Assembly (NCBI GenBank): GCA_025934635.1
Contig: JAICWX010000070.1
Coordinates: 1-32,669 of the forward strand
Source: Streptosporangiaceae bacterium
GTDB taxonomy: Bacteria; Actinomycetota; Actinomycetes; Streptosporangiales; Streptosporangiaceae
Reading direction: 5' to 3'
DNA length: 32,669 nucleotides
Part shown: in pieces, positions 23,880-32,669 of the stretch
Position numbering within the stretch: the first letter of the stretch is position 1
How the letters are laid out: each line of letters starts with the position of its first letter
Made by a program: the position numbers and the translations under genes
Notes under the pieces: model-generated
Database searches by the model: none
What the model was told of the DNA's origin: nothing
Seen by the model: the letters and a program-made list of their open reading frames with translations, nothing else

Positions 23880-24884
23880 TTGGATGCGGCGAGCCGCGCC
23901 CGGGGCGCGCTGTACGGGCTGGCGATCGGGGATGCACTCGGCATGCCGACGCAAATGCTCTCCCGCCCGGAGATCCGCGCTCGCTGGGGCGACCTGCTGA
24001 CCGGCTTCGAACCCGCCCCGCCCGGTCACCCCATCGCCGCGGGCATGCCCGCCGGGACGGTCACCGACGACACCGAGCAGGCCGTCCTCCTCGGCCGCCT
24101 GCTGGTCAGCGGACACGGAATAATCGATCCGAACGAGTTCGCCGCTGCCCTCGTCAGCTGGGAACGCGACATGGCCGGGCGCGGTTCGCTGGACTTGCTC
24201 GGCCCCTCCACCAAGCGCGCCGTCGCCGCCGTCCTGGCCGGCACCCCGCCCGGGGAAGCCGGCTCCGCCGGCGACACCAACGGCGCCGCCATGCGGATAG
24301 CCCCGGTGGGCATCGCGGTTTCCCCCGATGACCTCCCGATGCTCGTCGGCCAGGTTGTGATGGCGAGCCGCGTCACCCATAACACCGGGATCGCGCTGGC
24401 CGGCGCCGCGGCGGTGGCCGCCGCGGTGAGCGCGGGCGTTTCCGGTGCCACCGTCGCCGACGCCACCATCCTGGGCGCTGACGCTGCGTCCATCGCGAAG
24501 CGCTGCGGCCACTGGGTGGCTGGCGCGGACGTCGCGGCGCGCATCGGGTGGGCGACTGGCCTGGTCACTGATCGCTCCCCACGCGATGCGGCCGATCTGA
24601 TCTATCGTTTGGTCGGTACCAGCCTGGCCACCCAGGAATCGGTGCCGGCCGCGTTCGCCGTGCTGGCCGCGATCCCCGATGACCCGTGGCGGGCCTGCCT
24701 GCTGGCCGCCTCACTCGGCGGCGACTGCGACACGATCGCGGCCATGGCCGGCGCGATCACCGGTGCCTGCCACGGTATCGAGGCCTTCCCGCCCGGGGCC
24801 ATCGCCGTCATCGACGCCCAGGACCTGGGCCTCGCTTCCCTGGCCGACGACCTGCTCGCCCTGCGATCCGGGCCGGTTCAGTAG
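23880..24884 (+). CDS. ADP-ribosylglycohydrolase family protein (DraG-like)
   Basis: This 334-aa all-helical hydrolase uses two metal ions to cleave ADP-ribose linkages or related N-glycosides. Metal-binding motifs are visible: ARGALYGLAIGDALGMP at the N-terminus, GTVTDDTEQAVLL (about 59-71), GDTNGAAMRIAPVGIA, and GGDCDTIAAMAGAITGA near the C-terminus. The start appears to be TTG at 23880, because family N-termini begin just before the RARGALxGLAxGDALG segment. A PfkB sugar kinase lies 750 bp downstream on the same strand, separated by a toxin-antitoxin pair on the other strand; DraG/PfkB pairs are a recurring arrangement in actinobacteria and suggest processing of an ADP-ribosyl or nucleoside-derived sugar. 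Confidence 0.92.
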   Translation: MDAASRARGALYGLAIGDALGMPTQMLSRPEIRARWGDLLTGFEPAPPGHPIAAGMPAGTVTDDTEQAVLLGRLLVSGHGIIDPNEFAAALVSWERDMAGRGSLDLLGPSTKRAVAAVLAGTPPGEAGSAGDTNGAAMRIAPVGIAVSPDDLPMLVGQVVMASRVTHNTGIALAGAAAVAAAVSAGVSGATVADATILGADAASIAKRCGHWVAGADVAARIGWATGLVTDRSPRDAADLIYRLVGTSLATQESVPAAFAVLAAIPDDPWRACLLAASLGGDCDTIAAMAGAITGACHGIEAFPPGAIAVIDAQDLGLASLADDLLALRSGPVQ

Positions 24885-24889
24885 CCCCG

Positions 24890-25216
24890 TCACTCAATCA
24901 TGCCCAGGGCCGCCCGCAAGCCGGCCTCGATGCGCCGCATCGCGGGTGCCGTGATCGCGCCGACATCCGCCCGCACTTCGTCGTCATAGATCGTCTCGAT
25001 GTCGTCGCAGGAAACCCAGCCGGTCATGACTTCCTCGGACCCCAGCGGCACCATCGCAGGCCGCTCAGCCTTGGGCGGCGTTGTCGTCAGCCGGGCCGCG
25101 AGCACTTGCTCGAATGCGCGGTTGCGCCGGTTATTGGAGACCACCAGGAAGAACTTGTCGTCGCCGATGTGAGTCAGGTGAGCACGGTAGATGCGGCCGC
25201 GCAGCATGTCCGTCAT
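24890..25216 (-). CDS. MazF/PemK-type endoribonuclease toxin
   Basis: This 108-aa MazF-fold toxin is predicted to cleave RNA. It opens MLRGRIYRAHLTHIGDDKFFLVVSNNRRN in family fashion (seen as GRIYRA and FLVVSNNRRN), followed by VLAARLTTT and VMTGWVSCDDIETI. The order of strands and the late DDI-type segment match PemK/MazF proteins. It lies 12 bp downstream of the antitoxin gene and ends 5 bp from the convergent DraG gene. No damage to the frame is seen, so the pair may be functional. Confidence 0.83.
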   Translation of the reverse strand: MTDMLRGRIYRAHLTHIGDDKFFLVVSNNRRNRAFEQVLAARLTTTPPKAERPAMVPLGSEEVMTGWVSCDDIETIYDDEVRADVGAITAPAMRRIEAGLRAALGMIE

Positions 25217-25228
25217 GGCTGAATGCCG

Positions 25229-25549
25229 TCAGTCCTCGTCGGCCCAGGCGGGACGCCTGCGTCGCGCAATCCGCCGGTACTCCGCCGCCTCGCCGCTGGC
25301 CAGCCTGTCGGCGGCCGCACTGGCGTAGGCATCCTCCTCGGCCTTCTCCCGGATCGCCCGTAGGCCCGCGGTAAAGATCATGTGCAGGAGTGCCGCCTCG
25401 GTGACTGTCTCCACGGCGACGCCAGCGAGGGCGGCAAGTGCATCGCGCTCGGGGGTGTGCCCCCGAAGGCGTTCCAAGTCGGCAAGATCTCGCTCGGTGA
25501 GCGGCAAACTCTTACGGGCCTTGGCTGGCTGGTTGAGCCTGGTGGCCAC
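25229..25549 (-). CDS. Antitoxin partner of the MazF-type toxin
   Basis: This 106-aa, charged, mostly helical protein (LTERDLADLERLRGHTPERD, then LAALAGVAVETVTEAALLHM and a Lys/Glu/Arg-rich C-terminus ending AWADED) lies directly upstream of the toxin. The part around residues 15-60 could be a ribbon-helix-helix or similar DNA-binding unit, and the acidic tail likely wraps the toxin. GTG at 25549 has GGGAGG about 10 nt upstream and is preferred; the frame is open to an ATG at 25606, but that lies inside the palindromic operator. I do not recognise a named antitoxin family with certainty. Confidence 0.75.
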   Translation of the reverse strand: MATRLNQPAKARKSLPLTERDLADLERLRGHTPERDALAALAGVAVETVTEAALLHMIFTAGLRAIREKAEEDAYASAAADRLASGEAAEYRRIARRRRPAWADED

Positions 25550-25582
25550 CGTCCCCGTACCTCCCGGATATGTGCGGCACTC

Positions 25583-25603
25583 TGTGCATAATATTATGCC
25601 ACA
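25583..25603. promoter_or_regulatory. AT-rich palindrome between antitoxin and pfkB, candidate TA operator
   Basis: GCATAATATTATGC (25586-25599) is a perfect 14-bp palindrome flanked by TGTG and CACA halves. It is strikingly AT-rich in a very GC-rich region and lies about 35 bp upstream of the antitoxin start and 30 bp upstream of the PfkB start. TATAAT-like bases inside it could serve as -10 elements in both directions. Autorepression by the antitoxin, with the kinase under the same control, is the natural reading. Confidence 0.6.
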
Positions 25604-25631
25604 CATAGTGCTGCATCATTGCGAGGCTCAA

Positions 25632-26615
25632 GTGAGTGGTCCGGTTAGCCGTCTCGTCTTCGCCGGCGAGGCGATCGTCGACCTGTTGATGCGAGTGCCC
25701 GCGCTGCCCGGCCGCGGCGGCGACATGCTCGCGGAATCGGCGTCCGTCGAGGTCGGCGGCGGGTTCAACATCATGGCCGCGGCCGTCAGGCAGGGCCTGC
25801 CCGTGGTCTACGCGGGCGGCCACGGCACCGGGCCGTGGGGCGACAAGGTGCGTGCCGCCCTGGCCGCCGAAGGCATCGGGCTGCTCCGCCCGCCCCACCC
25901 GGACGCGGATACCGGCTTCACCGTGGGCCTGGTCGAGCCGGACGGCGAGCGGACGTTCGTCACCGCGCTGGGCGCCGAATCACTGGGCGCCGACTGGGAC
26001 CTGATCCGGCTCCGGGCCGGGGACGCGGTCTACGTCTCCGGCTACGGCCTGGTCCCGGACGGCTCGGGCCCGGTCCTCGGCGCCTGGGCGGCCGGCCTGC
26101 CGGCCGGGGTCCTGCTGTTCACTGACCCGGGCCCGCTGGCCGCCGACATCCCCGCGGCCGTGCTCGACCCGGTGCTGGCCCGCTGCGACTGGTGGAGCTG
26201 CAACCGGCGCGAGGCCGCCTTGCTCACCGGCAGCGACGACCTGGCCGAGGCGGCCCGCCACCTGGCCCGCCGGACCGGGCGGGCCAGTGTGATCGTCCGT
26301 TCCGGCCCCGACGGCTGCGTGCTGGCCCTGCGGGTACCCGGCCCAGCGCAGGAGGACGACCCAGCGCAGGAGGACGACCCAGCGCCAGAGCACGCCCTGT
26401 CCCTCAGCCACATCACGGCGCCCGCCGTGATCGCGGTCGACACCACCGGTGCGGGCGACGCCCACTCCGGGGTGTTCCTGGCCGCCCTGGCCGCCGGGCT
26501 GGCGCCCGGCGAAGCCGCCCGCCGGGCCAACGCGGCCGCCGCCCTGGCCGTCACCCGGCCCGGGGCGGCCACATCGCCCACCCGGGCCGAGCTCGACCGG
26601 TTCCTGGCCGTCTAA
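25632..26615 (+). CDS. PfkB-family carbohydrate kinase
   Basis: This 327-aa ribokinase-fold enzyme phosphorylates a sugar or nucleoside with ATP. The N-terminal substrate region is EVGGGFNIMAAAVRQGLPV with GGHGTGPWGDKV, and the C-terminal signature DTTGAGDAHSGVFLAAL carries the catalytic base Asp and anion hole. Between about residues 235 and 250 there is an acidic repeat (AQEDDP twice, then APEH) from an 18-bp tandem duplication, in a surface loop. GTG at 25632 is preceded by GAGG. It probably belongs functionally with the DraG-like gene upstream; ribose or an ADP-ribose-derived sugar is a possible substrate, by inference only. Confidence 0.9.
   Translation: MSGPVSRLVFAGEAIVDLLMRVPALPGRGGDMLAESASVEVGGGFNIMAAAVRQGLPVVYAGGHGTGPWGDKVRAALAAEGIGLLRPPHPDADTGFTVGLVEPDGERTFVTALGAESLGADWDLIRLRAGDAVYVSGYGLVPDGSGPVLGAWAAGLPAGVLLFTDPGPLAADIPAAVLDPVLARCDWWSCNRREAALLTGSDDLAEAARHLARRTGRASVIVRSGPDGCVLALRVPGPAQEDDPAQEDDPAPEHALSLSHITAPAVIAVDTTGAGDAHSGVFLAALAAGLAPGEAARRANAAAALAVTRPGAATSPTRAELDRFLAV
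26342..26377. repeat. 18-bp tandem duplication within pfkB
   Basis: CCCAGCGCAGGAGGACGA occurs twice in direct succession (26342-26359, 26360-26377), and a third, diverged unit begins at 26378. It keeps the frame and adds six residues (AQEDDP-type) per copy. Confidence 0.85.
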
Positions 26616-26632: not shown

Positions 26633-27814
26633 TCAAGAAGTGGGCGTGGGGCTCGGCTTCGGTTTCGGCGTGGGCTTGGGCGCGGGCTTGGGCTTGTAGA
26701 CCACCGTGACGGAGACGCTGTTCGGCCCCACCACGACGTGGGTGGTCAGCGCGACCTTGCTGGTTACCGTCACCGTCACGGTCGCGATCCCGTTGACCGG
26801 CAGGGACCCGGCGGCCGGCGAGACGCTGACCCTGCCGGCGTTAGCGGTGACCTGGACGGTGTAGTGCGGGACCGGCCCGTTCACCGCGGTGAGCTCGAAG
26901 GACCCGCTGACCGGTGCCCCGGCCTTCGAGGTGAGCGACAGGCTGACTGGTGCCACCAGCAGGTAGCCCGGGCCGGGCGAGCTCGATGGCGACGGCGACG
27001 CCGATGTCGGCGACGGCGAGGGCGAGGGCGGCGTCCCGCGGCCCGTGGGGAAGGCGGGGCTCGACGCCGTCGCGGGCACCGACGCGGACGCGGACGGCGT
27101 TGCGTTCGCCGTGGCCGTGACCTGGCGCGCCGGGACGACCCGGGGCGTGCGGCCCGGGCCCGCGCTGGAAGCCGGGGCCGATACTTCCGTGCCCGGCGCG
27201 GCCGTAGCGGTGGCCCCGGGCGCGGGCGCCGCCGGCCGGTGCGAGCCGCCGCCCGCTACCAGTGCCGCGGCAACGCCAAGCGACACGACCAGCGGCACCA
27301 GCAAGCCGGCCGCCGAGGCCAGGCCAGGATGCCGTTGCAGCCGCTGCCACCAGCGCGGTCCGGACGGGCCGATCACCCGCGGGAATCCTGCCTGGTCGAA
27401 CGCGCCCGCGCGGTGCGCCACGCTCGCCCGCTGGGCGCGGCCCGTCGGGGTGTTGTCCGTGCAGGCCGCCAGCACTTTCCCCCGGAGCCCGGCCGGCAGC
27501 GTGACCGCCGCGAGCTCGTCGCCGGCGTCCGCTGACTCTGGGGCAGCCGCCCCGGCCCCGGCCGGACCGAGCCGCCGCAGGCACTCGTTCCGCGCGACCG
27601 CCTCCAGCCAGGCGCCGAGCCGGTCAGGATCGCCGAGCCCGTCCAGCTTGGCGGCCGCGATGAGGAATGTATCGAGCAGCGCCTCGGAAGCGTCGCCTTC
27701 CGGCAGCACCGAGCGGCAGGAGGCGTAGAGCGACGCGGCGTACTGGTCGTACGCCGCACCGAACCCGTCCGCGTCACCAGCGATGACGTCGGCTACTAGC
27801 GCACGATCCTGCAT
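26633..27814 (-). CDS. Membrane protein with degenerate sigma-70 region 2, TM helix and outer beta-sandwich-like domain
   Basis: This 393-aa protein keeps a region-2-like N-terminus (ALVADVIAGDADGFGAAYDQ, LYASCRSVL and LDTFLIAAAKLDGLGDPDRL with WLEAVARNECLRRL), but the acidic DAxDxxQ core is altered to DASEALLD, and region 4 and the zinc-finger motif are absent. One TM helix (about 165-187) is followed by a Pro/Ser/Thr/Ala-rich stalk. A segment of about 90 residues then looks like an Ig/BACON-type beta-sandwich (LLVAPVSLSLTSKAGAPVSG ... VSVSPAAGSLPVNGIATVTV), and the tail is Pro/Lys-rich. It starts 3 bp after the sigma/anti-sigma fusion gene, so the two are co-transcribed. It may be a sensor or decoy that evolved from a sigma factor and is unlikely to act as one. 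Confidence 0.82.
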   Translation of the reverse strand: MQDRALVADVIAGDADGFGAAYDQYAASLYASCRSVLPEGDASEALLDTFLIAAAKLDGLGDPDRLGAWLEAVARNECLRRLGPAGAGAAAPESADAGDELAAVTLPAGLRGKVLAACTDNTPTGRAQRASVAHRAGAFDQAGFPRVIGPSGPRWWQRLQRHPGLASAAGLLVPLVVSLGVAAALVAGGGSHRPAAPAPGATATAAPGTEVSAPASSAGPGRTPRVVPARQVTATANATPSASASVPATASSPAFPTGRGTPPSPSPSPTSASPSPSSSPGPGYLLVAPVSLSLTSKAGAPVSGSFELTAVNGPVPHYTVQVTANAGRVSVSPAAGSLPVNGIATVTVTVTSKVALTTHVVVGPNSVSVTVVYKPKPAPKPTPKPKPSPTPTS

Positions 27815-27817
27815 GGC

Positions 27818-29086
27818 CTAGCCCGGCGGGGTGGTGCTGGGGGTGGATGGGGGAACGGTGGGCGTAGCGGTGGGGCTGAACGTGAACTTAGGCCGGGACG
27901 GAGTCGGCGCCGCGGACGTGGCCGGATGCGACGGCGACGGCTTGGGCCTGGCCGTGGCGGTGGCGGACGGGGTCGGCGCCGGCGGCGCGGTGCTGGTCGC
28001 CGTCGCCGCCACGCTGATGGTCGGCTGCGCGCCGCTGGGCAGCCCGCTGGGCAGGTCGGTGCTGGCCGGCAGCGTGCCGCTCATCGCGGCACTCGACTGG
28101 CTCGACTGGGCGGCCGCGGCCGCGGGGTGCTTGGGATGGCCGGTAAGCGCGATGGCCGCGACGATGCCGGTCGCCGCGATCGCGATCACGACGGCGGCCA
28201 CCGCCGCCGTCATGCCGGATAGCGCGAGCCCCCGCCGCCTGGGCGGCCTGATCGGCTCGGGGAAGCCGTTCTCCCGGAACGGCCCGGCCCGCTGCGTCAC
28301 CTCCCGCCGGTACGACAGCGCCCCCGGGCTGGAACTCGTGCACAGCTGCAGGACCTCGTCCCGCAGCTCGAGCGGCGGCCCGAACAGCGGGACCATGCCA
28401 TGCTGCATGGCAGGCCGCAGCGCGCCCTCGATGCGGTCGGCACAGACGTCGCACTGGTCGACATGGCGGTCGATCAGCTTGCGGTCCGGCGGAGTCAGCT
28501 CGCCGTCCCAGCCGTCCAGCAGCATGTCCAGGTCGGGACACGCCCGCCGGCCGGTCCGGGCCACCAGCAGGGCACCGAGTCCCCGCTCCAGCTGGCCGCG
28601 GGCCCCGGTGGCCAGCTCGTGCGCCTGGTTCCGGGGCACGCCGAGCACCGCCGCCAGGTCGGCGCCCTGCAGCTCGTGCCGGAGGTCGAGCTCGATGACC
28701 TCGCGCTCAGCCGGCTTCAGCCCGCCCAGGGCGGTCCGGACGGACTCGCGCAGCTCGGCTTGATCCGGCCGGCCCGCCGGGTCGGGGTACGGGTCGTCCA
28801 GGTCCCCGGCGTCGTCCAGGCCCGGTTCCGTCCCGTCCAGCCGCAGCTGGCATTCGTTGCGGCCGACCGCGTAGAGCCAGGGCCGGAGCTTCCTCGCGTC
28901 GCTCAGGTCGCCGAGCCGGGAGGCGGCGACGACGAACGTGTCCTGGACCGCGTCCGAGGCGTCGTCGGGATCGCCCAGCATCCAGTGGCAGTAACCGTAC
29001 AGGGACCCAGCGTATTCGTCGTAGGCATGAGCCAGGCCGGCTGGGTCGCCTGCCGCGATGGTCGTGACGATCTCCCGGTCGTCCAT
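27818..29086 (-). CDS. ECF-type sigma factor fused to zinc-finger anti-sigma motif, TM helix and outer stalk
   Basis: This protein of about 422 aa has, in order, sigma region 2 (AYDEYAGSLYGYCHWML, PDDASDAVQDTFVVAASRL, LRPWLYAVGRNECQLRL), region 4 (ALGGLKPAEREVIELDLRHE, ADLAAVLGVPRNQAHELATG) and a zinc-finger anti-sigma motif HVDQCDVC near residue 207 with an upstream Cys. One TM helix follows (about 288-314), then a Pro/Ser/Thr-rich extracellular tail of about 105 residues. The core-binding and DNA-binding regions look intact, making it the likely active member of the trio. ATG at 29086 has TACGGT 12 to 7 bases upstream, fitting a leaderless start; a TTG two codons earlier is possible. Membrane-fused ECF groups with zinc finger and TM are known in Actinobacteria, and release by proteolysis or conformational change is inferred. 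Confidence 0.88.
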   Translation of the reverse strand: MDDREIVTTIAAGDPAGLAHAYDEYAGSLYGYCHWMLGDPDDASDAVQDTFVVAASRLGDLSDARKLRPWLYAVGRNECQLRLDGTEPGLDDAGDLDDPYPDPAGRPDQAELRESVRTALGGLKPAEREVIELDLRHELQGADLAAVLGVPRNQAHELATGARGQLERGLGALLVARTGRRACPDLDMLLDGWDGELTPPDRKLIDRHVDQCDVCADRIEGALRPAMQHGMVPLFGPPLELRDEVLQLCTSSSPGALSYRREVTQRAGPFRENGFPEPIRPPRRRGLALSGMTAAVAAVVIAIAATGIVAAIALTGHPKHPAAAAAQSSQSSAAMSGTLPASTDLPSGLPSGAQPTISVAATATSTAPPAPTPSATATARPKPSPSHPATSAAPTPSRPKFTFSPTATPTVPPSTPSTTPPG

Positions 29087-29165
29087 CCCCAAACCGTAGT
29101 TGAAACACCAGCGTATGGGCGGAATGTCAGCAAATTTCGACCGGGTGGCGGCCCGATCCGCCCCG

Positions 29166-30536
29166 TTACGAGGGGGTGGGGGTCGGCGTATCGGTCGGCG
29201 TGTCCGTCGGCGTCGGTGTCGGCGTCGGGGTGGGAGTCGGCTTGCGCGTATGCGTCGGGGCCGGGGTCGGCGTATCGGTCGAGCTGTCCGTCGGCGACGC
29301 GGACGGGGAAGCCGGCGCCGAGGACGTGGCCGACGCCGAGGTGGCCGGCGTGGCCGACGCCGACGCCAGCGCCGTCGGCGTGTACGCGAACGTGGGCGCC
29401 AGGGCCGGCGCGACCGTGGAGGTCGCGCTGGGCGATGGCAGGCGGCTCGGGCTGGCGCCGGCCGGCTGCGAGCTGCCGGCCGCCGGGGTGCCCGGGGACG
29501 TGGCCGAATTGGAGGACTGAGCCGCCAGGGCCCCGGTGCCGTGCAGGCCGGTGACCGTGATCAGCGTGGCGCTCATCGCCGCCACCACCCACAGCGCCAC
29601 CGCCGCCACCGCCGTGATGGCCCCCGGGTTGCCCCGCAGCCGGCCCCAGCTGAAACCCCCGCCGAAGCCTCCGTCGAGCAGCCCGGAGCCGGCCGCCGCC
29701 CGGCGGTCGCGGGACGGCACGGGGATCAGGTCAATCGAGGTTTCCGAATCCCCGTCGGGCGGGAGCAGCGGGGCCGTAGCCGTCCAGGAGGGCGACCGGG
29801 AGGCGGCCCGCTCCAGTACCGGCTCCCGTAGCCCGGCCGGCAGCGCGGGCAGCGGCAGCAGCCGGGCCAGCACCTCCGGGCGCAGTGACCCGTGCCGGCT
29901 CCCGGCGCAGATCTCGCAGGTCTCGATGTGCTGGGCGGCAATCTTCCCGGTCTGGACGGTCAGCTTCCCGTCCCAGCCGGCCAGCAAGGTGCCGAGTTCG
30001 GGGCACGCCTGCCGCCCCGTGCGCGCGATGAGCAGCGCGTCAATGGCCTTTTCCAGGTGCTCGCGAGCCTGCGAGGCCAGGGTGTGCGCCCGGCTCCAGG
30101 AGACCTCGAGCACGGTCGCGAGCTCCGACTCATCCAGGCCGTGCCGGACGCTCAGCTCGATGACCTCGTGCTCCTCCGGCTTGAGCTCGGAGAGAATGGC
30201 GCGCAGGACACGGCGCACCACCGCCTGCTCGGCGCCGGCGGCGGGCCCGCCGTCGCCGGCCCCCTCGTCGAAGCCCGGCTCGGCCGTGCGCAGCCGCCGG
30301 TAGCAGTCATCCCGCGCGATGGCGTAGAGCCGGGCGCGCAGCTGGCCGGCGTCCTTCAGGCCGCCCAGCCTGGCGGCCGCCGCGAAGGTCTCCGCCAGGG
30401 CCCCCGCGGCCAGCCGGGGATCACGCAGCATCCAGCGGCAGTACCCGTACAGGGACGCCGCGTACGTGTCGTACGCGGCGGCCAGCCCGCCCGGGTCGCC
30501 CGCCGCTAGGGCTGCGACAACCTCGCCGTCGTCCAT
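29166..30536 (-). CDS. Sigma/anti-sigma-like membrane fusion protein with Thr-Pro repeat tail
   Basis: This 456-aa paralogue of the next gene downstream has region 2-like (AYDTYAASLYGYCRWMLRDP, LRARLYAIARDDCYRRLR) and region 4-like (LSELKPEEHEVIELSVRHGL, ATVLEVSWSRAHTLASQARE) segments. A zinc-finger motif follows (His203-xxx-Cys207-xx-Cys210, Cys178 upstream), then one TM helix (about 306-329) and a 125-residue outer tail rich in Ser/Ala/Thr/Pro that ends in Thr-Pro and Thr-Asp-Thr-Pro repeats. In region 2.2 the usual DAxDxxQ acidic patch is replaced by LAAGALAETF, so core RNA polymerase binding is doubtful. ATG at 30536 is chosen over an upstream in-frame start at 30581 by alignment with the paralogue. 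It is first in the trio, behind the histidine kinase. Confidence 0.86.
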   Translation of the reverse strand: MDDGEVVAALAAGDPGGLAAAYDTYAASLYGYCRWMLRDPRLAAGALAETFAAAARLGGLKDAGQLRARLYAIARDDCYRRLRTAEPGFDEGAGDGGPAAGAEQAVVRRVLRAILSELKPEEHEVIELSVRHGLDESELATVLEVSWSRAHTLASQAREHLEKAIDALLIARTGRQACPELGTLLAGWDGKLTVQTGKIAAQHIETCEICAGSRHGSLRPEVLARLLPLPALPAGLREPVLERAASRSPSWTATAPLLPPDGDSETSIDLIPVPSRDRRAAAGSGLLDGGFGGGFSWGRLRGNPGAITAVAAVALWVVAAMSATLITVTGLHGTGALAAQSSNSATSPGTPAAGSSQPAGASPSRLPSPSATSTVAPALAPTFAYTPTALASASATPATSASATSSAPASPSASPTDSSTDTPTPAPTHTRKPTPTPTPTPTPTDTPTDTPTPTPS

Positions 30537-30563
30537 GTGCACACCGTCTGTGAGTCGCCCGTT

Positions 30564-30569
30564 ATACCC
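30564..30569 (-). promoter_or_regulatory. GGGTAT -10-like element upstream of the first sigma-fusion gene
   Basis: On the minus strand GGGTATAAC lies about 28 nt before the ATG at 30536. GGGTAT matches the -10 box of stress-type (SigB-like) promoters, and TATAAC within it also suits the housekeeping sigma. The -35 region is poor in both readings, so activator-dependent transcription is possible, in keeping with the 11-bp repeats about 75 bp upstream. Confidence 0.35.
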
Positions 30570-30639
30570 AGATCGTCGCAACCGATCATAAGTAACAGCT
30601 CAGGCGCATATGACATCAATCGCCCCAACGGCGTGACCT

Positions 30640-30672
30640 GCACCCCAGTTGCACCTCGGCCGCACCTCAGTT
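30640..30672. promoter_or_regulatory. Three contiguous 11-bp direct repeats, candidate OmpR-family binding site
   Basis: GCACCCCAGTT (30640-30650), GCACCTCGGCC (30651-30661) and GCACCTCAGTT (30662-30672) repeat with an exact 11-bp period. OmpR/PhoP-family winged-helix regulators bind tandem 11-bp direct repeats of this kind. The array overlaps the kinase stop codon and lies about 100 bp upstream of the first sigma-fusion gene on the same strand, in a plausible activator position. The adjacent two-component response regulator belongs to the OmpR family. Confidence 0.55.
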
Positions 30673-32172
30673 GTACGTCGTGCCCGGCGGCTGGGCCCGC
30701 TCGACGGCCTGCGCCGGCGGGTAGAACGGGATCCATACCTGCACGCTCGTGCCGACTCCGGCCGCCGACTTGAGCATGGCGTGACCGCCGTGCGCGATCG
30801 CGATGGCCTGGACGATGGCCAGCCCGAGGCCGCTGCCGTGGCCGTCCTTGCCGTTGTGCCCGCCCCGGTAGAAACGGTCGAACGCGCGCGTGGCCGCGTC
30901 GGCGTCCATGCCCTGGCCGGAGTCGGTCACCTCGAGCAGGGCGCCCTGCCCGGCCTCGGAGAGCCGGACGGCGACCGGGGTGTCCGTCGCGGTGTGCTCG
31001 CGGACGTTGCCGAGCAGGTTGGCCAGCACCTGCCTGATCCGGGGCTCGTCGGCCACGACCAGCAGGCTGTGCGGTGTCCGGGCGCTGACCGGACGGCTCG
31101 GCTCGACCGCCTGGGCGTCGGCGACCGCGTCCGCCACCAGGGCCGACAGGTCGGTCTCGGTCAGGTCGAGGGAGGAGTCGCGGTCCAGCCGGGCCAGCTC
31201 GAGCAGCTCGGCGACCAGGCTGGACATCCGGTCGGCCTCCTGCTCGATGCGGCGCATGGCGTTCGGCAGCCGGTCCTCGCCCAGCGCGCCCTGCCGGTAC
31301 AGCTCGGCGTACCCGCGGATGGTGGTGAGCGGCGTGCGCAGCTCGTGCGAGGCGTCCGCGGCGAACTGCCGCACCTTCTGCTCGGAGTCCCAGCGGGCGC
31401 CGAACGCCTGCTGGATCCGGTCCAGCATCGTGTTGATCGCCCTGGCCAGCCGGCCCGCCTCGGCGTGGTCGCCCGGGTCGGGCATCCGGGCGGTCAGGTC
31501 ACCCCGGCTGGTGATGATGTCGGCGGTGCTCGCCATCCGGTCGAGCGGAGCCAGTCCCCGGCTGATCAGCCAGCGGCCGCCCACCGCGAGCAGGGCGAGC
31601 AGGATCGCCCCGGTGATCAGCTCGGCCAGGACCAGGCCGCGGACCTCGCTGCCGACCGCGCTGTTCGGCCGCGCGATCACCAGGATGCTCTTGCCGGGCA
31701 GCATCGACTCGTTGCTGCGCTGCGCCTCGGTCGAGGTGACGATGCGCCAGACCGCGGTCATCGCCGGGCCCGACTGCGCGATGGGGAACAGCTGGCTCGC
31801 CGGGTACTGGGTCAGGAAGGTCTTCCACCGCCTGCTGGCGACCAGCTCGTTGAGGAAGGCCGTCAGCTCCCGCAGGGCGGGCGACGGCGGGCTGGACAGC
31901 ACCTGCACCGAGCGGGTCGGGCCGTTGTAGTAGGCGACCGCGTACCCGCCCGGCAGGCTGCTGAGCTCGCTCAGCTTGAGCCGGGCGGTCAGCGAGAGGT
32001 CGGAGTTGAACTGGTCCTGCTCGGAGTTGCCCAGCACCACGGTGGTGACCACGCCCATGATGATCAGGAACAGGGCGGTCACCGTGATCAGCCCGGCCAG
32101 CAACCGCGACCGCAGCGACAGCCTGCCGCGGCCAGGGCCGAGCCGCCGCGTCAGGTTCAGCGCCGCATTCAC
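30667..32172 (-). CDS. Sensor histidine kinase (HAMP, HisKA, HATPase)
   Basis: This 501-aa membrane kinase has two TM helices (about 24-47 and 178-199) enclosing an outer sensor domain of about 130 residues. A HAMP linker (RGLAPLDRMASTADII) follows. The H-box is FAADASHELRTPLTTIRGY with His276, the N-box is NLLGNVREHT, and the G-boxes are DSGQGMD and GSGLGLAI. Length and order match actinobacterial OmpR-partner kinases such as TrcS. Its ATG overlaps the response-regulator stop by 4 bp (ATGA). The signal is not known; the sensor domain contains no recognised ligand-binding family. The tandem sigma-fusion genes follow on the same strand. Confidence 0.95.
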   Translation of the reverse strand: MNAALNLTRRLGPGRGRLSLRSRLLAGLITVTALFLIIMGVVTTVVLGNSEQDQFNSDLSLTARLKLSELSSLPGGYAVAYYNGPTRSVQVLSSPPSPALRELTAFLNELVASRRWKTFLTQYPASQLFPIAQSGPAMTAVWRIVTSTEAQRSNESMLPGKSILVIARPNSAVGSEVRGLVLAELITGAILLALLAVGGRWLISRGLAPLDRMASTADIITSRGDLTARMPDPGDHAEAGRLARAINTMLDRIQQAFGARWDSEQKVRQFAADASHELRTPLTTIRGYAELYRQGALGEDRLPNAMRRIEQEADRMSSLVAELLELARLDRDSSLDLTETDLSALVADAVADAQAVEPSRPVSARTPHSLLVVADEPRIRQVLANLLGNVREHTATDTPVAVRLSEAGQGALLEVTDSGQGMDADAATRAFDRFYRGGHNGKDGHGSGLGLAIVQAIAIAHGGHAMLKSAAGVGTSVQVWIPFYPPAQAVERAQPPGTTYN

Positions 32173-32669
32173 CTGGTCGCGCGCTCGGTTTCCGGCGGCG
32201 GCCGCAGGCTGTAGCCGACGCCGCGCTGGGTGTGGATCAGCGGCGGCCCGAGCGGGTCGAGCTTACGGCGCAGGTAGCTGACGTACGTCTCCACCACCTG
32301 GGACTGGCCGGCGAACTCCCAGCCCCACACGTTCTCCAGCAGCTGCTGCCTGGTCAGCATCCGGCCCTGGTTGCGCATCAGGTAGGCGAGCAGCCGGAAC
32401 TCCGTCGGCGAGAGCTCCACCGCGGTCCCGTTGCGCCGTACCGCCCAGTGCTCCTCGTCCAGCTCCAGGTCGCCCACGGTCAGCAGCGCCGCGTCGTCGC
32501 TCGGGCCGTCGCCGCCGGGCGCGCGGGTGGTGCGGCGCAGCACCGCCCGGACCCGGGCCACCAGCGCCTCGACCGAGAACGGCTTGGTCACGTAGTCGTC
32601 GCCGCCCAGGGTCAGCCCGCGGATCGTGTCCGACGTGGTGTCCCGCGCGGTCAGGAAGATGACCGGGAC
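32169..32669 (-). CDS. OmpR-family response regulator (partial; N-terminus beyond the window)
   Basis: The last 166 residues are visible. The end of the receiver domain includes PVIFLTARD (with the switch Thr), GGDDYVTKPF (conserved Lys) and ARVRAVLRR. The winged-helix DNA-binding domain follows: VELSPTEFRLLAYLMRNQG, LTRQQLLENVWGW, VVETYVSYLRRKLD and IHTQRGVGYSL. The phospho-acceptor Asp and start lie past position 32669. It is encoded just upstream of its cognate kinase with a 4-bp overlap. OmpR-type proteins bind 11-bp direct repeats such as those at 30640-30672. Confidence 0.95.
   Translation of the reverse strand, partial: VPVIFLTARDTTSDTIRGLTLGGDDYVTKPFSVEALVARVRAVLRRTTRAPGGDGPSDDAALLTVGDLELDEEHWAVRRNGTAVELSPTEFRLLAYLMRNQGRMLTRQQLLENVWGWEFAGQSQVVETYVSYLRRKLDPLGPPLIHTQRGVGYSLRPPPETERATR

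Follow-up and report, generated by a model that had tools for sequence, protein, structure and literature searches.

Three consecutive minus-strand genes of a Streptosporangiaceae bacterium, here called A, B, and C, are best explained as a whole by an arrangement in which B is an active sigma factor with a cis lock, C a half-sigma that is coupled to B and tunes it, and A an altered sigma. We put the probability of this reading at about one half. It draws on the domains, gene layout, ancestry, and constraint of the three genes and on a predicted closed fold of B; proteolytic release, the contacts of C, and the role of A are what we infer. The genes lie in a stretch of 32,669 nucleotides (contig JAICWX010000070.1), referred to as the window.

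Gene A (29166–30536, 456 residues) encodes sigma-2, sigma-4, a zinc anti-sigma (ZAS) domain, a transmembrane segment, and a tail rich in Pro, Ser, and Thr. Gene B (27818–29086, 422 residues) encodes a complete ECF sigma and a ZAS domain, followed by a helix-4-like segment, a transmembrane segment, and the same kind of tail. Gene C (26633–27814, 393 residues) encodes sigma-2, a helix-4-like segment, a transmembrane segment, a Pro/Ser/Thr-rich linker, and an Ig-like outer domain. A histidine kinase gene (HK, 30667–32172) lies directly upstream of A, and a response regulator gene (32169–32669, cut by the window end) lies upstream of HK, both also on the minus strand. The original prediction described three consecutive paralogues, each with a sigma-70-like N-terminus, one transmembrane helix, and such a tail, and the open reading frames, alignments, and hydrophobicity bear this out. 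A matches B at 49% over 254 residues (E 4e-73), and C matches B at 49% over the first 83 residues (E 5e-21) and A at 52% over 83 residues (E 3e-17); judged by sequence, the likeness is far beyond chance. By hydrophobicity, each protein has a lone prominent segment, at residues 303–331 of A (29544–29630), 285–318 of B (28133–28234), and 163–191 of C (27242–27328), numbered from the starts given here. C starts 3 nt past the stop of B, both in the window and in L001, the corresponding locus of a close relative. Upstream of A and B, no clear ECF −35/−10 pair was apparent by eye; blocks conserved between the window and L001 are present.

Gene B had been described as intact, and its domains agree. 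Sigma-2 (28832–29086) and the zinc anti-sigma core (28442–28540) score above the Pfam cut-offs (Sigma70_r2, 2.5e-9; zf-HC2, 1.1e-4), and sigma-4 (28553–28768), also seen in the predicted structure, scores below (r4_2, 0.0028). The NCBIfam sigma70-ECF profile gives 51.3 bits (cut-off 42.9). The DAxD...QD motif is whole at residues 42–49 (DASDAVQD), and the zinc ligands C183, H208, C212, and C215 are all invariant in 64 aligned rows. Along B, profile matches to sigma precede those to anti-sigma, the order of SigW–RsiW, a pair with a class I (zinc) anti-sigma. The ZAS part aligns ungapped to RsiW 9–71 (E 0.011), the remainder of helix 4 being unaligned; the RsiW matches are weak (E 0.006–0.011) and end where helix 4 begins. 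Helices are predicted at 184–189, 199–211, 213–230, and 239–250. The features of a class I anti-sigma, that is, the ligands, helices 1–3, and helix 4, can thus be recognized in the B sequence, helix 4 being aligned at its start only. The juxtamembrane stretch (28256–28372) carries a helix-4-like LRxxVL followed by RAGxFxxxGFPxP.

In the AF2 model, B is predicted to adopt a closed sigma arrangement resembling that of SigW in the SigW–RsiW complex (structure comparison, VIA), a form that AF2 may favour for any ECF. Other inhibited sigmas do not superpose on the model over both domains: SigK–RskA gives an rmsd of 8.2, and sigmaE–RseA, AlgU–MucA, and SigE–ChrR each superpose on one domain only. 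The VIA list contains no anti-sigma chain over the ZAS part, and residues past 178 are barely covered. From its sequence, B is an ECF sigma that continues into a zinc anti-sigma domain and a transmembrane anchor, SigW and RsiW in one chain, as it were. C, unlike either B or the SigW–RsiW pair, has the sigma-2 and helix-4-like parts only.

By domain layout, B is of a kind already known, the ECF48/52/53 type; its homologues number at least 1871 among the matches listed. The available text of PMC8999054 and PMC5826349 describes ECF52 (SCO4117 of Streptomyces coelicolor), ECF48, and ECF53 as an ECF sigma with a zinc finger, one or two transmembrane helices, and a Pro-rich outer extension, for which release by proteolysis is proposed. 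The layout of a ZAS domain and one or two transmembrane helices after the sigma is seen in B (Pfam and ligands) and in A (four ligands only), and not in C, which differs from these groups in its Ig-like outer domain and in being without sigma-4 and the zinc finger. ECF52 has a carbohydrate-binding module in its outer part, whereas A, B, and C gave no Pfam match for one up to E 1; among the relatives, there is one weak carbohydrate-binding tail match (P0286, F5_F8_type_C_2, E 0.017).

The only Pfam match in C is to r2 (0.0021, below cut-off), at the sigma-2 segment (27563–27814). As predicted, sigma-4 and the zinc finger were found in C neither by Pfam nor by profiles nor in the model. The original prediction also took the degenerate N-termini of A and C to be sigma-related, and the profiles of both indeed match sigma chains of solved structures (for A, SigL and SigW). 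The juxtamembrane segment of C (27371–27499), which includes an RAGxFxxxGFP motif, can be aligned to the first part of helix 4, by which an anti-sigma binds sigma-2. Further out, residues 284–376 of the tail (26687–26968) are modelled as an Ig-like domain (PapD/ASH/MSP-like). VIA structure matches for C are almost confined to residues 279–378; it follows that the sigma-2 fold of C is predicted from sequence profiles and AF2 confidence. The outer domain had been thought a gain of C, but no gain is needed, as its profile also matches the tails of full-length sigma relatives (e.g., L084, both of L085, L086, L089, and L158).

Sigma-2 is the slowest-evolving and best-conserved part of C, which has at least 119 relatives at 59–91% identity among the matches listed. 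In a set of 111 sequences, E45, L48, and D49 (B numbering), all found in C itself, are kept in 102, 105, and 106, respectively, and 104 have no residue at position 42. W70, R76, N77, E78, and R82 are kept in 11/11 rows. The DAxD motif, kept by B, is mostly absent from the A and C lineages. For a single pair, dN/dS in C is high, 0.61 in the juxtamembrane segment and 1.06 in the Ig part.

A scan of genome contigs gave 16 loci; L001 alone is a close relative, and the other 15 (25–36%) were not used. The order HK-A-B-C recurs in L001, the one close relative found. Conservation of the trio order across relatives, as predicted, holds this far but no further, the trio being found in none of 18 other loci (L083–L100, several of them short contigs); L083 is the sole case among these with B and a C relative. 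The predicted set of one sigma with two altered partners stands insofar as B is apparently intact, A is altered, C is missing parts, and the order in L001 is the same; the 18 other loci speak against a general trio. In one genome (G014), a C relative with a different tail lies 2.8 kb from B, and thus tight B–C coupling is not universal. The genome searches scored the best first-look candidates, at most 13–21 per genome, so that absences are soft. Equal-sized contigs in the B/C and B/A relatives suggest linkage: among the matches listed, there are six such sizes for B–C (3355, 9255, 7752, 626744, 38272, and 69547) and seven for B–A, with 1701 taken as chance. HK relatives sit upstream of A in L001 and upstream of B in L083. 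A kinase–sigma operon everywhere was rejected, as an HK relative (E ≤ 1e-10) occurs only in these two among L001 and L083–L102.

The rarity of the trio speaks for the alternative that survives best, possible though rather unlikely, in which A, B, and C are ordinary tandem-duplicated paralogues. That is, they would be three independent one-component membrane sigmas or sensors, A and C having their own targets, with no joint complex. Elsewhere, too, two or three such genes stand in tandem (L085 of G003, L121 of G021, and L122 of G091), which fits this alternative and also means that homologues do not, outright, occur only singly. However, C without sigma-4 cannot work as a normal sigma, the 3-nt gap between B and C is found in two genomes, and DAxD is mostly gone from A and C.

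Gene A retains sigma-4 and the ZAS part (29907–30224), as predicted, with zinc ligands C178, H203, C207, and C210 invariant in 13 rows. In Pfam, Sigma70_r4_2 passes the cut-off (1.8e-6), r2 reaches only 0.061, and zf-HC2 gives no match; the NCBIfam sigma70-ECF profile gives 39.6 bits over 19–164, just below the 42.9 cut-off. In sigma-2 (30285–30536), the DAED-type motif is changed to LAAGALAE, with D42, D45, and Q48 of B replaced by L, G, and A. The acidic patch had been called lost, but E49 stays. Its sigma-4 and zinc ligands are intact, but its core-binding residues are changed, and A is therefore probably poorly active alone.

An improbable alternative is a split sigma like SigO–RsoA of Bacillus subtilis, with C giving sigma-2 and A (or freed B sigma-4) giving sigma-4, both released from the membrane. 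The precedent, in the available text of PMC8103513, is that two proteins can carry sigma-2 and sigma-4 separately, and C is likewise a sigma-2 protein without sigma-4 beside sigma-4-bearing proteins. The five residues kept throughout in C sigma-2 and the retention of sigma-4 and ZAS by A (one-pair dN/dS 0.10 there vs 0.55 in sigma-2) would also fit. Unlike SigO–RsoA, C is anchored in the membrane and has an outer domain as well as an anti-sigma helix-4-like segment, and A and B, the neighbours that bear sigma-4, also hold sigma-2. Core-facing position 48 of C is mostly L, position 42 is mostly empty, and the coupling of C is to B, not A. Furthermore, the median sigma-2/sigma-4 distance ratio is 1.08 both in A (1100 pairs, 48 sequences) and in B (5002 pairs, 107 sequences), leaving out pairs that had too many gaps or that differed by less than 5% in sigma-4; A has thus not handed sigma-2 over.

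No better supported is the proposal that A is a dormant DAED-less sigma activated by phosphorylation, C being a separate membrane sensor. In the available text of PMC8999054, ECF43 is without DAED, and its member EcfP is silent until phosphorylated by a Ser/Thr kinase; A and C, too, mostly lack this region 2.2 motif. However, the kinase upstream of A is a histidine kinase, a scan of six neighbours in the window gave no Ser/Thr kinase domain, and the A lineage mostly keeps E or D at positions 45 (43/57 sequences) and 49 (50/57). Unlike EcfP, there is a transmembrane anchor, and A has a cis anti-sigma part. That A and C are decaying copies heading for loss is very improbable, for although conserved residues and domains are changed or missing and single-pair dN/dS is raised in some parts, the equal distance ratios speak against the decay of A that dN/dS had suggested, C has many relatives with positions 45, 48, and 49 kept, and A, B, and C form separate, well-supported clades. 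Given this and the slow evolution of C sigma-2, the "graded decay" of the original prediction is not supported.

In the tree, incomplete rows (L097–L100) were left out, and juxtamembrane columns were blanked for all A rows, L086, and L087, which are unaligned there. A, B, and C as one clade is borderline (AU p = 0.051). The reduced C-like layout is also found in proteins of about 200 residues beside ppa/dacB, with near-full-span matches in 45/150 genomes from this order. That C and these short proteins share one origin was rejected (AU p = 3.06e-5), the groups having been defined once the layouts were already in view. In the literature searched, at search-result level and mostly without subscription journals, no description of sigma-2-only membrane proteins was found; the ppa/dacB-adjacent membrane protein family, common in one order, is apparently undescribed.

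We return to the reading of B as a cis-locked sigma tuned by C. B would be a one-component transmembrane ECF sigma factor, whose C-terminal anti-sigma part, with the zinc domain on sigma-4 and helix 4 on sigma-2, may keep B closed and free of core at the membrane; release would follow an outer signal, most likely via regulated proteolysis. C would be a specialised paralogue, its gene tightly coupled to that of B, which is without sigma-4 and its zinc-domain partner and appears to retain sigma-2, the matching helix-4-like segment, a transmembrane segment, and an outer domain. Through partner switching at the membrane, C and B may swap contacts between sigma-2 and helix 4, such that the outer domain of C could tune the tightness of the hold on B. 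Like PhyR, the sigma-like domain of C, its core contacts changed, could titrate an anti-sigma element; unlike PhyR, C is a membrane protein with no receiver domain match in Pfam and no sigma-4.

Sigma/anti-sigma locks are usually viewed as a single unit. Here, half of the lock, one matched pair, was apparently dropped twice, and selection retained the other one. We suggest, tentatively, that membrane half-sigmas are a real class that keeps the sigma-2:helix-4 half and drops the sigma-4:zinc half, that they have two or more origins in this actinobacterial order, and that they may act in trans as partner-switching subunits: by lending or borrowing helix 4 or sigma-2, they would control either a full membrane sigma or even RNA polymerase. 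If true, they would serve as a natural test case for the two class I anti-sigma interfaces being separable modules, and B and C, 3 nt apart, would be a simple system for the partner tuning of a membrane-held sigma.

Three minus-strand genes lie in a row in the window, A (29166–30536, 456 aa), B (27818–29086, 422 aa) and C (26633–27814, 393 aa), and they encode mutually similar proteins, each with a transmembrane (TM) helix, as the original prediction had rightly observed. Pairwise, A and B are 49% identical over 254 aa, and C is about 50% identical to each over its first 83 aa. B begins with sigma-2 and sigma-4, followed by a zinc anti-sigma (ZAS) domain, a juxtamembrane segment that is conserved, a single TM helix and a tail rich in Pro, Ser and Thr (PST). 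The domains of A follow the same order; residues of its region 2.2 are changed, and its juxtamembrane motif lacks the second half. C consists of sigma-2, the juxtamembrane segment, TM, a PST linker and an Ig-like domain. Histidine kinase (HK) and response regulator (RR) genes lie upstream of the three.

The B stop and the C start are 3 nt apart, both here and in L001, a locus from another genome. Between these two loci, non-coding blocks upstream of A (30537–30610, minus) and B (29087–29120, minus) are well conserved and are possible promoters or operator sites. Past the end of C are plus-strand genes for a PfkB sugar kinase (25644–26615, E 3.7e-36) and an ADP-ribosylglycohydrolase (23880–24884, E 4.3e-63). 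A MazF/PemK-like toxin gene occupies 24890–25606 (minus, E 2.8e-11); the small ORF upstream of it, without a Pfam match, is perhaps its antitoxin.

B combines a sigma factor with its own anti-sigma in a single chain. RsiW is the anti-sigma of SigW, and a profile of B relatives (64 rows) matches SigW (1.6e-14) and then, further along, RsiW (0.0063). A 13-row profile of the ZAS and juxtamembrane parts aligns without gaps to RsiW 9–71 (E 0.011), an alignment that, on our reading, reaches the first turns of helix 4. All four zinc ligands are invariant in 64/64 rows. The AF2 model of B (pLDDT 83.3, pTM 0.78) superposes on the sigmas of the inhibited complexes SigW–RsiW, CnrH–CnrY and RpoE–NepR with an rmsd of 2.9–3.1 over 153–155 residues, versus 21–28 for RNAP-bound ECFs with both domains aligned; B is thus predicted to adopt a SigW-like closed form. 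The rmsd to SigK–RskA, also an inhibited sigma, is 8.2, and for sigmaE–RseA, AlgU–MucA and SigE–ChrR one domain only superposes. The sigma-2 cysteines C33 (28988–28990) and C79 (28850–28852), nearly or fully invariant in B and likewise in C and in the short proteins described below, may serve as a redox or metal pair. Since ECF48, 52 and 53 are among the sigma factors described as carrying such extensions (PMC8999054), and SCO4117 is the studied case (PMC5826349), B alone is ordinary and known in kind.

The new point of this analysis is the half-sigma layout. C as query also found proteins of about 200 aa with sigma-2, a C-like LRxRVLSG...RADxFDRxGFPxPP segment and a TM helix, and without sigma-4, ZAS or long tail. 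Their Pfam sigma-2 matches are sub-threshold at best (none, 0.025 and 0.0013 in the three scanned). These short proteins (L101:5505–6107; others in L102–L118) have homologues of the L101 ppa (inorganic pyrophosphatase) and dacB (D-Ala-D-Ala carboxypeptidase) within a few kb in 18/18 loci, and a third, weakly NERD-like gene in 16/18, all names being assigned by Pfam. Profiles of sigma-4 and ZAS matched nothing in the 18 loci; an additional sigma-like ORF is present in L109 (8856–9473). In the order, 45 of 150 genomes have matches of at least 175 bits that span at least positions 2–177 of 203, the layout being inspected individually in the loci read. In the phylum (198 genomes), no listed match extends beyond position 123, C of genome G001 excepted.

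In other genomes, a full-length sigma–ZAS–TM protein occupies the ppa/dacB place (19 of the 20 loci retrieved and also L119, all picked for resemblance). In an 88-row tree, A, B, C, the short proteins and these full-length proteins each make up one side of a starred branch; the short proteins group with the full-length ppa/dacB proteins, and C falls together with A, B and other rows (99/96). A topology with all 30 reduced proteins (C and the short ones) in a single clade has an lnL lower by 55 and is rejected (p-AU 3.06e-5); the tree requires two changes. The reduced layout thus arose at least twice. Judged from the usual ECF layout, it probably arose by loss rather than gain of sigma-4 and ZAS.

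The core-binding residues of region 2.2 differ among the three proteins. Positions 45, 48 and 49 (B numbering) presumably correspond to sigma-70 D403, Q406 and E407. At position 48, 107/111 B sequences have Q or E, 105/111 C sequences have L, and 49/57 A sequences have R (36) or L (13); position 42 holds D in 107/111 B sequences and is missing from 104/111 C sequences. The full-length ppa/dacB proteins also lack the DAED motif (R at position 48 in 19/20), and therefore reduced proteins are not the only ones to have lost it. EcfP, described in PMC8999054, has no DAED motif and is inactive until phosphorylated. With this precedent, the changed or absent residues suggest that A and C alone are probably weak core binders.

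The idea that A and C are decaying is not borne out. Sigma-2 is the least divergent part of C (mean pairwise distance 0.16, n = 108), followed by the juxtamembrane segment (0.21), Ig (0.30), TM (0.40) and PST (0.43), and the median sigma-2/sigma-4 distance ratio is 1.08 for both A (1100 pairs of 48 sequences) and B (5002 pairs of 107 sequences). In the single pair window–L001, dN/dS is 0.23 for C sigma-2, 0.19–0.23 for the parts of B, tail excepted, and 0.55 and 0.10 for A sigma-2 and sigma-4/ZAS; values of 0.61 (juxtamembrane) and 1.06 (Ig) in C argue against strong constraint there.

The original prediction had proposed a survey of the order of the trio in related genomes. L001, a 5.2-kb MAG contig, has an HK end, A, B and C in the same order; the trio is absent from the 18 other loci read (L083–L100), several of which are contig ends. 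One of these, from genome G014, has RR, HK and B, with a C relative bearing another tail 2.8 kb further and no A on its 17-kb contig. The L001 MAG is labelled Nocardiopsis sp., which may be wrong; the few relatives of these proteins that carry a name come from Trebonia and Streptosporangiaceae. Among the matches listed for 150 family genomes, C itself (span 1–377) is in G001 and a relative (2–275) in G014, the remainder being short ppa/dacB proteins or, within longer proteins, sigma-2 parts or tails. Relatives of B at E ≤ 1e-30 are present in 72/100 genomes, and protein collections hold at least 1871 B, 195 C and 227 A relatives at E ≤ 1e-3, other paralogues included. Full-length membrane sigma genes adjoin elsewhere, three at L122:3615–10231 and two at L121:3777–7049, and tandem arrays of the family therefore recur. 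P0286, an A relative, has a tail with a weak match (E 0.017) to an F5/8-type domain, which binds galactose; this is reminiscent of ECF52 and its carbohydrate-binding tail.

Most likely, B would be kept closed at the membrane and freed by proteolysis upon an outer signal, a proposal already made for ECF52. C, encoded directly behind B, resembles it in the sigma-2:helix-4 pair and bears an outer domain of its own, so the simplest way for it to act would be for B and C to swap the parts of this pair. We infer this exchange, the outer signal and a role for A, which differs in its sigma-4 and has altered core contacts; the three proteins may also form a complex.
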